Shown here in pieces: positions 19,886 to 55,377 of a DNA stretch of 64,000 nucleotides. Under the pieces are notes generated by a model. That model was not told the DNA's origin. It did no database searches and saw only the letters and a list, made by a program, of their open reading frames with translations. Numbering within the stretch: position 1 is the stretch's first letter; every line of letters starts with the position of its first letter. The position numbers and the translations under genes are program-made. This DNA comes from an uncultured Pelagibacteraceae bacterium (lineage in GTDB: Bacteria > Pseudomonadota > Alphaproteobacteria > Pelagibacterales > Pelagibacteraceae), in the NCBI GenBank assembly GCA_902618485.1, contig CACNAR010000004.1, positions 62,001 to 126,000 on the forward strand, given 5' to 3'.

Positions 19886-19971
19886 TGGTGCGGCCAGAGA
19901 GACTCGAACTCTCATGGACTAGGTCCACACGGCCCTCAACCGTGCCTGTCTACCAATTTCAGCATGGCCGC
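19886..19971 (-). tRNA. tRNA-Leu (anticodon GAG)
   Basis: An 86-base tRNA including an encoded CCA. The acceptor stem is GCGGCCA/TGGCCGC. The anticodon stem CACGG/CCGTG closes loop TTGAGGG, with anticodon GAG. The long variable arm is typical of leucine, and the T-arm is normal (GAGAGTTCGAGTCTCTC). Confidence 0.96.
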
Positions 19972-52548: not shown

Positions 52549-52625
52549 TGGTGGGCCCGCCAGGACTCGAACCTGGGACCAATACATTATGAGTGTACTG
52601 CTCTAACCAACTGAGCTACAGGCCC
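52549..52625 (-). tRNA. tRNA with CAU anticodon (elongator Met, or Ile2)
   Basis: A 77-base tRNA with encoded CCA. The acceptor stem is GGGCCTG paired with CGGGCCC (one wobble), the D-arm is TAGCTCAGTTGGTTAGAGCA, the anticodon loop is CTCATAA, and the T-loop is normal (TTCGAGT). CAU can be elongator methionine or lysidine-modified Ile2. It is not the initiator, which lacks the first pair. I cannot decide between the two from sequence alone. Confidence 0.93.
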
Positions 52626-52713: not shown

Positions 52714-53427
52714 TCAATCATTTTTTTCAAAAAATCCGTTATCTCCTATTGAATTTAAATATCTGTAACCAAATTCTTTTAAATGATTAATAAATTTTAA
52801 TTTGCTAACTTTATTTGTTTCATCATACATTTCAACACATATTAATTTAATCTTTATCTTCTGAAAGTCAATTCCTTGCAAAATTTCAAAATCATGCCCT
52901 TCAGCATCGATGTTCAGAAAATCTATATAATCTAACTCAATATCTTTGTTTCTTAAGAAATCTAAAAATTTAAAAGCTTTAATTTCTTTTTTAGTATGAT
53001 TGCCCTCTGAAAGGTTACTTGATGTTATTTCAAAAAAATTTTTATCAATGGAGTTAATTGGACTAAAATTATTGTCTATAAAAGAAATGACATCTTTATT
53101 TTTATTTGATATCGCAACACAATAATTTTTATCTCTCTTTCTGATCATATTAAATAAATCGATTGAAGTTCGATTAATATCAATATTAATACCTTTCCAA
53201 CCTTTATCGTAAAGCATTGCTGTATTCGAATACAATACTGGATGGAAACAACCTATATCTACATAAACTCCACGTTGTTTATTTTTAAAAAATGAATTGA
53301 TAAACAAATCCTCTCCCGATTGAGAATAGGTATCTCGTTTAATGAAACATTTATGATGAAAATATAAATTATAAAACAGATAAGGTTTGTATAAAAAATG
53401 ATCTCTACTTATCTTTTTTTTAAACAT
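52714..53427 (-). CDS. FkbM-family SAM-dependent methyltransferase
   Basis: A 237-residue protein. SQSGEDLFINSFFKNKQRGVYVDIGCFHPVLYSNT holds the SAM loop (DIGCFHP), followed by GWKGINIDINRTSIDLF, AISNKNKDVISF and FLNIDAEGHDFEILQGIDF, the FkbM hallmark. Family members O-methylate sugars or antibiotics. This gene sits alone between two tRNA genes, with no glycan operon beside it, and could be an accessory insertion. A surface-glycan substrate is the best guess. Confidence 0.83.
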   Translation of the reverse strand: MFKKKISRDHFLYKPYLFYNLYFHHKCFIKRDTYSQSGEDLFINSFFKNKQRGVYVDIGCFHPVLYSNTAMLYDKGWKGINIDINRTSIDLFNMIRKRDKNYCVAISNKNKDVISFIDNNFSPINSIDKNFFEITSSNLSEGNHTKKEIKAFKFLDFLRNKDIELDYIDFLNIDAEGHDFEILQGIDFQKIKIKLICVEMYDETNKVSKLKFINHLKEFGYRYLNSIGDNGFFEKND

Positions 53428-53446: not shown

Positions 53447-53521
53447 TGGTGGGCCGTGTTGGTTACGCTCCAACTACCCCTGCAATGTCAATGCAGTACT
53501 CTACTATTGAGCTAACGGCCC
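53447..53521 (-). tRNA. tRNA-Val (anticodon GAC) with non-canonical T- and D-loops
   Basis: A 75-base tRNA with encoded CCA. The fold is perfect: acceptor GGGCCGT/ACGGCCC, D-stem GCTC/GAGT, anticodon stem CTGCA/TGCAG with loop TTGACAT, T-stem GTTGG/CCAAC. The T-loop is AGCGTAA instead of TTCRANN, and the D-loop is AATAGTA with A18 rather than G18. The other two tRNAs here are normal. It lies 32 bases after rpoD and is probably co-transcribed with it. Confidence 0.93.
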
Positions 53522-53553: not shown

Positions 53554-55377
53554 TTAACTTTCTAAAAAACTTTTCAACTGTTTAGATCTGCTTGGATGCT
53601 TTAACTTTCTTAAGGCTTTAGCTTCTATTTGTCTTATTCTTTCTCTTGTAACTGAAAATTGTAATCCTACTTCTTCAAGAGTGTGATCTGTATTCATTCC
53701 AACTCCAAATCGCATTCTAAGCACTCTCTCTTCCCTTGGTGTTAAAGTAGATAAAATTTTCGTTGTAGCCTCACCTAAATTTGACTTGATCGCCTGCTCA
53801 AGAGGAGCGAGCGCTTTGGTATCTTCGATAAAGTCACCTAAACTGCTATCCTCTTCATCCCCAACTGGTTTTTCTAAGGAGACAGGCTCTTTTGAAATTT
53901 TAAGAACTTTTCTTACTTTATCTAAGGGCATTCTTAATTTTTTGGCTAATTCCTCTGGAGTTGCCTCTCTTCCAAATTCACTTAATATTAATCTTTGAGT
54001 TCTAACAATCTTATTTATAGTCTCAATCATATGAACCGGGATTCTTATTGTTCTTGCCTGATCTGCAATAGATCTTGTTATTGCTTGTCGTATCCACCAA
54101 GTAGCATAAGTAGAAAATTTATAACCTCTTCTATACTCAAATTTATCGACTGCTTTCATTAAACCTATATTTCCCTCTTGAATTAAGTCCAAAAATTGCA
54201 AACCTCTGTTTGTATATTTCTTAGCAATCGAAATAACTAGCCTCAAATTTGCTTCAACCATTTCTTTTTTCGCTATTCTAGACTCTTTCTCTCCTTTTTG
54301 TACTCTGCTAACTAACTTTTTATAGTCAGTTACCGACATTCCTAATCTATGACTTATTTCAACTAATCTATCTCTAATATTTTTGAATTCATTTTTATTT
54401 TTTGAGAAAAATTGCTTCCATAAAGAATTCGTATCTAAAAACTTTTTTAAATTAGGATTAATTTCATTACCTATATAAAACTTTATAAATTCGTTTCGAG
54501 AAATCTTATGATCTATAGCTAATCTGAGCAAATTTCCCTCTAAAGAAACAATTTTTTTATTCTCTACATAATGTTTTTGAACCAACTCCTCTAAAACAGA
54601 CGGTGACAATTGAAGTGATTTAATATTTTCTAGAATATCATTAACTATTTTATCGTGACCTTTTTCTTTTGCAGGCGAAAAGGTCTTAGAGTTTAATACA
54701 CAATCTAATTTTTCTTTTTGGTACTTAATTAACTTATTATATTCTTTAGTTAATAAATTAACTGTTTTTAAAACTTTAGGTTTTATCTCACTTTCCATTG
54801 CAGCGAGTGTGGGATTAAAATCTTCATCTTCCTCACTGGCACCTTCTTCTTTTTCTAATTCTCCAGAATTTTTTTGTTTTGCACTAGGTCCCGTTGATTC
54901 ATCTTCCATGTAATTTGTGTCAATATCAATAATTTCTCGAACTAAAATTTCATCTTTCTGAAGTTTTTCATTCCATTCAAAAAATTGTTGAGCTGTTATA
55001 GGGCTTTGAGACAACGCAATTAGCATTACATCTTTTCCAGCTTCAATCCTTTTAGCGATAGCTATTTCACCTTCTCTTGATAATAACTCAACACCACCCA
55101 TTTCTCTAAGATACATTCTAATAGGATCATCACTTTTCTCGATTGTTTTGCCCTCTTCCTTGGATGAACTGTCTTTTTTTCTTAAAACTTTAAAATCTGA
55201 TTTTTTTTCTACTAGAGTTACTTTTTCATCAAGAATATGTATAAATGCTTGAGCAAGATTTTCATCAGACAAATTTCTCTTTCCTAGAGATTTGCTTAAT
55301 TCTTCGTATGTAATGAATCCTCTATGGGTTCCACGACCCATTAATCTCGCGAATGATTTTGTAATAATTCTTTCCAC
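53554..55377 (-). CDS. rpoD: Primary sigma factor RpoD (sigma-70)
   Basis: A 607-residue sigma factor. Region 1.1 ([16 protein letters not shown]), region 1.2 ([31 protein letters not shown]), an acidic non-conserved region (about 155-190), regions 2.1-2.4 ([38 protein letters not shown]), region 3, and region 4.2 ([20 protein letters not shown]). It directs most transcription. It follows dnaG after 66 bases and precedes tRNA-Val, a version of the classic macromolecular-synthesis operon. Confidence 0.97.

Follow-up and report, generated by a model that had tools for sequence, protein, structure and literature searches.

Few features of tRNAs are as strongly conserved as the contact between residues 18 and 55 and the pseudouridine at position 55 (psi55). 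In the normal elbow, residue 18 inserts between residues 57 and 58 and forms a single hydrogen bond to psi55. An alternative to G18-psi55, A18-G55, was reportedly recovered by the Steinberg laboratory in 2003-2004 among E. coli suppressor tRNAs obtained from libraries with randomised D- and T-loops. The canonical bacterial elbow consists of G18-psi55, G19-C56 and T54-A58 (PMC4810234, PMC7912444), and the T-loop of the eukaryotic initiator tRNA contains A54-A58 (PMC7912444). Reviews on T-loops and non-canonical tRNAs make no mention, in the passages searched, of A18/G55 or of phage elbows. The tRNA-Val(GAC) described here is encoded in a 64,000-nucleotide stretch of DNA (the window) from a Pelagibacteraceae bacterium of the SAR11 group. 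It shares with the canonical tRNAs the cloverleaf, the T-loop of seven nucleotides, G19-C56, a purine at position 57, G53-C61 and U8/A14, but differs from them in having A18/G55, A54/U58 and A15/A48, the last in place of the usual R15-Y48. A54 is also found in the eukaryotic initiator, whereas U58 and the altered 18/55 pair set the window tRNA apart from it; and while the suppressor tRNAs are products of laboratory selection, the SAR11 cases are natural chromosomal tRNAs. Among named phages, the tRNA-Met-CAT of Erwinia phage Cronus (AGTAGTA / TGCAACT) carries the same 18/55 swap but a normal U54-A58, and the tRNA-Val(UAC) of Pseudomonas phage Astolliot (AATCGGGA / AGGTA / ATCGTAA) shares A15/A48 and A54/U58 but keeps G18/U55. 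The combined A18/G55 and A54/U58 loop was found among viruses only in unnamed viral contigs.

The tRNA-Val(GAC) gene and its surroundings

The gene occupies positions 53447-53521 on the reverse strand. Its identity and position, as given in the preliminary description, were borne out by ARAGORN, which returned exactly these boundaries, and by the Rfam model RF00005, which scored it at 53.6 bits compared to 72.7 bits for the canonical neighbouring tRNA. No other GAC tRNA was seen in the window genome, and the gene specifies a cloverleaf, the anticodon GAC (53487-53489, from the sequence and the ARAGORN call), A73 and an encoded CCA. The acceptor stem is GGGCCGT/ACGGCCC, the D-arm GCTC-AATAGTA-GAGT, the anticodon arm CTGCA-TTGACAT-TGCAG and the T-arm GTTGG-AGCGTAA-CCAAC; all four stems, originally called perfect, are indeed paired, although 10-25 is a G.U wobble. 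Based on the sequence and on aligned relatives, the D-loop AATAGTA (53502-53508) places A15 at 53507, A18 at 53505 and G19 at 53504. The variable loop GGGTA (residues 44-48, 53475-53479) ends with A48 at 53475, opposite A15, and the T-loop AGCGTAA (53463-53469) comprises A54 (53469), G55 (53468), C56 (53467), G57 (53466), U58 (53465), A59 and A60, all on the reverse strand, so that each of the elbow residues first assigned at positions 15, 18, 19, 48 and 54 to 58 was confirmed. The tRNA thus retains G19-C56 and a purine at 57 and lacks the G18/U55 and U54-A58 of the canonical elbow; A18 with G55 and A54 with U58, the two marks of the alternative elbow of phage type, are both present.

The upstream neighbour, identified from the list of open reading frames and from tblastn synteny, is rpoD (53554-55377, reverse strand), and a canonical tRNA-Met(CAT)-type gene, which is not an initiator, lies at 52549-52625 on the same strand (ARAGORN, synteny). 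According to tblastn synteny, rpoD-tRNA-Val-tRNA-Met is the usual gene order in the window genus. This tRNA-Met and the tRNA-Leu(GAG) at 19886-19971 were both checked and are canonical, as had been stated for the other tRNAs of the window. The tRNA-Val and tRNA-Met genes are separated by a gene for an FkbM-type methyltransferase (52714-53427); the gap between them measures about 60 bases in many relatives and 1-2.6 kb in others, and with its variable spacing and the FkbM-type gene the site looks like an insertion spot. Elsewhere in the window, an SAR11_0636 sRNA (RF01827) was detected at 1520-1609 with 117 bits.

Residues 18 and 55 in viral and SAR11 tRNAs

Viral loci were fetched from IMG/VR mainly by patterns that fixed residue 55, or residues 54 and 58, and never residue 18, while a third, looser pattern for A18 with U55, which also matched TTAGAG after a normal GG, supplied control loci; the 18/55 states were then taken from every tRNA that ARAGORN delineated in these loci. 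The 2268 distinct class I viral tRNAs comprised 1941 with G18/U55, 166 with A18/G55, 12 with A18/U55 and 8 with G18/G55, these counts being derived from enriched samples and not estimating prevalence. Few viral tRNAs break the 18-55 rule, and seven of the eight with G18/G55 contain an AGG that can be read as A18 G19 G20. After clustering, the association between the two residues had an odds ratio of about 2600 (Fisher p about 1e-199). Similarly, residues 54 and 58 covary (U-A 1983, A-U 197, A-A 54, G-G 14). Of the tRNAs with A54/U58, most (179) have U55 and a minority (17) have G55, indicating that the 54-58 and 18-55 contacts are separable modules. A15/A48 does not strictly accompany the other elbow changes, and there is no support for it as an obligatory component of the elbow. 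Of 434 bystander tRNAs in the control loci, 5 had A18/G55 and 10 had A54/U58. Many phage tRNAs of many isotypes with A18/G55 or A54/U58 elbows are represented in IMG/VR loci L226-L580; a match of locus L072 to the GAC-specific pattern was rejected as a chance match within a coding region.

The same two residues change together within SAR11. The tRNA-Phe(GAA) of the window genome (G000:C5:114430-114504) has A18/G55 (AGGAGTA / TGCGAAT) with a normal U54-A58, and the tRNA-Thr(GGU) of a complete genome of the window genus, G012 (L596-L663, 1131481-1131555), likewise has A18/G55 (AGGTAGTA / TGCAAGT), unlike its canonical counterpart in the window genome. A18 accompanies every real G55 tRNA found in the Pelagibacterales, be it Val, Phe, His or Thr, and the 102 tRNA-Phe genes divide into 37 with A18/G55 and 65 with G18/U55, with none mixed. 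In three genomes (G081, G082 and G208; loci L211, L213 and L208) the tRNA-Val(GAC) at the same rpoD locus has G18 and a TTC T-loop. These restored tRNAs have a D-loop of eight nucleotides and one common T-arm, both loops having changed together each time. An RpoD tree, which is a quick tree with modest support, demands three separate changes, but the common T-arm makes it possible that one restored allele was spread by recombination. Judging from these sequence comparisons, the 18/55 change represents genuine covariation at the tertiary level.

Outside SAR11, the G55 pattern retrieved from 380 alphaproteobacterial genomes a single tRNA, a tRNA-Pro with G18 (G509), and the A54/U58 pattern retrieved from 298 genomes of other Pseudomonadota two likely tRNAs, both with U55, with both patterns detecting only AGCTC/GAG D-stems. 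When 85,000 species genomes were searched for the loop pattern of the window tRNA, the matches listed were from Pelagibacteraceae, mostly single-cell assemblies. The preliminary description had considered that the same loop might prove widespread and already described; within the window genus and among phages it is indeed widespread, but the searches of other Pseudomonadota showed it to be very rare there. Full-text searches of the open-licence literature returned no description of the altered elbow.

The viral data raise the question of whether a tRNA of phage type, or its elbow, replaced a resident canonical tRNA-Val(GAC). The combined T-loop (A54 G55 .. U58) occurs in 17 distinct viral tRNAs of the isotypes Val, Ile, Gly, Phe, Glu, Met, Thr and Trp, and one viral tRNA-Val(UAC) (L232) has D-, variable and T-loops identical to those of the window tRNA. 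The location of the gene also differs between lineages, which would allow for a capture: it resides between rpoD and tRNA-Met in the window genus but not there in G061, near tRNA-Leu(UAA) in some SAR11 lineages and near pntB in G190. However, a BLAST search of the window tRNA against 50,697 phage records (E 0.01) gave no match, metagenomic viruses being covered by the pattern search, and A18/G55 also arose in the Phe, Thr and His tRNAs of SAR11, with canonical Phe and Thr relatives in sister genomes. Moreover, the canonical tRNA-Val(GAC) of G061 and of family f2 shares with the window tRNA the D-loop of seven nucleotides and has a similar anticodon arm and variable loop, which favours a change in place. 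We regard a replacement from phages as unlikely.

T-loop modification enzymes and a possible route to the altered elbow

TruB is, to our knowledge, nearly universal in bacteria. The TruB_N domain (PF01509), which was matched in all 14 control genomes, is absent from three genera of the order (g1, g8 and g9), the window genus among them, and present in the other seven. In G061 and G190 the gene order is infB-rbfA-truB-rpsO-pnp, while in G012 rbfA and rpsO are only 28 bases apart, truB being cleanly deleted (1216434-1217040 vs L664 and L665), and the TruB queries from G061 and G190 found no tblastn match in this genome. For TrmFO, no match above the cut-off was obtained in any of 19 genomes chosen to span the order, and the weak matches sit in frames of 622-640 amino acids, as would fit the relative MnmG. 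With the Pfam model of TrmA, a single partial match exceeded the cut-off among the 19 sampled genomes (in a genome of family f2), which is possibly a TrmA-like protein; in the sampled genomes of the window genus there was no TrmA, and all TrmFO matches were below the cut-off. The window tRNA has no U at position 54 or 55 and does lack, as originally remarked, the targets for m5U54 and psi55. The remark is, however, mostly moot, since TruB is missing in the window genus and neither TrmA nor an over-cut-off TrmFO was seen in the sampled genomes of the family.

TruB is missing from almost every SAR11 genome in which the swap occurs. The A18/G55 form of tRNA-Phe is found in 37 of 52 genes from TruB-less genera as opposed to none of 50 from the others. 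A strict dependence on the loss of TruB is ruled out by lineages that possess the enzyme and nevertheless have A18/G55, in tRNA-His of genus g5 and in tRNA-Val of G190 (genus g7). Thus, the loss of TruB is best seen as permissive rather than required; neither is it sufficient, as 29 of the 32 tRNAs of the TruB-less G012 keep U55.

In the elbow that we propose, A18/G55 would replace the G18-psi55 contact and A54/U58 would replace U54-A58, reversed but still a pair. According to the predicted pairing geometry, A18 would enter the T-loop at the usual place of G18, its amino group forming a hydrogen bond to O6 of G55, such that the N6 donor of A18 and the O6 acceptor of G55 would stand in for N1/N2 of G18 and O4 of U55. 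Such a contact would require no modified base. As the exposed G19-C56 pair and the purine at 57 are kept, the outer face of the elbow, with which RNase P and the ribosome interact (PMC4810234), is likely intact. Once T-loop modification is dismantled, nothing would fix U54 and U55 for modification any longer, and SAR11 most likely drifted into the altered elbow during this dismantling, in which case the lost modification may have had a causal role. It might be speculated, as a tentative proposal to which we give somewhat less than even chances, that A18/G55, optionally with A54/U58, defines a second natural class of elbow that is independent of psi55 and T54, which phages use for bulk folding of their tRNAs without modification by the host and which SAR11 entered while discarding TrmA/TrmFO and TruB.

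Natural essential tRNAs in which both sides of the contact are swapped, occurring in one of the most abundant groups of ocean bacteria and in many phages, would offer a direct probe of the purpose of psi55 and m5U54. tRNA annotation and modification rules that are based on GG and TTC would overlook a working alternative elbow. Such an elbow also offers a new way to design tRNAs that are orthogonal or derived from phages.

Conservation, copy number and function of tRNA-Val(GAC)

The exact loop is present in 142 of the 159 genomes of the window genus in our sample of the order. Of the remaining 17, three differ by A57 only, three are canonical, one has an intermediate tRNA-Val (D-loop ATTAGTA, T-loop TGCAATC) and ten gave no match to the wider pattern. 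The tRNA-Val pattern needs an AGCTC D-stem, and a missing match in other genera thus does not equal loss of the gene; in G061, for example, the D-stem of the canonical tRNA-Val(GAC) reads AGTTC. Over 135 loci the tRNA of the main allele is 99.98% identical, as compared to 37-40% for the 60-base flanks (ungapped, anchored), and in other alleles the acceptor, anticodon and T stems carry compensatory pair changes (e.g. GGGACTG...CAGTCCC) around a fixed elbow. A sequencing error is ruled out by the identical 75 nucleotides in 136 fetched loci.

The complete genome G012 (1,343,202 bases) was read whole, and ARAGORN, run on the first 1.34 Mb, returned 32 tRNA genes, among them a single GAC tRNA, with the variant elbow, and a single tRNA-Phe. 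A18/G55 occurs in three of the 32, the Val, Phe and Thr tRNAs. The second, canonical GAC tRNA that had been suggested as a check was looked for in this genome and is absent, leaving no canonical isoacceptor with this anticodon there to take over the decoding. GUU and GUC account for 58% of the Val codons in G012; tRNA-Val(UAC), which is canonical in the window genome, could in principle read the rest alone. As tRNA-Phe is single-copy and not dispensable, its A18/G55 elbow must presumably support translation. Taken with the genus-wide conservation of the elbow against drifting flanks and stems, the sole GAC copy and the 18-55 covariation, these data agree with the initial interpretation of a coordinated change of the elbow as opposed to decay. 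The gene probably encodes a working elongator tRNA-Val(GAC) with alternative tertiary contacts between the D- and T-loops, which would be charged and take part in decoding.

In staphylococci, cell-wall synthesis makes use of certain glycine tRNAs whose elbows are altered, and altered D- and T-loops occur in tRNAs with such tasks. That the tRNA-Val(GAC) is specialised for a non-translational role is nevertheless highly improbable, given that it is the only tRNA available in G012 for so large a share of the Val codons and that the single-copy tRNA-Phe has A18/G55 too. Least probable of all is a decaying gene or pseudogene, for which only the Rfam score below that of the neighbours would speak and which is ruled out by near-identity across the genus next to diverged flanks, the compensatory stem changes, the encoded CCA and the lack of another copy. 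One genome contains, besides the gene itself, a further stretch that partially matches the 3' half of the tRNA-Val (G069:C1:397223-397251), perhaps a duplicate or the scar of an integration site.
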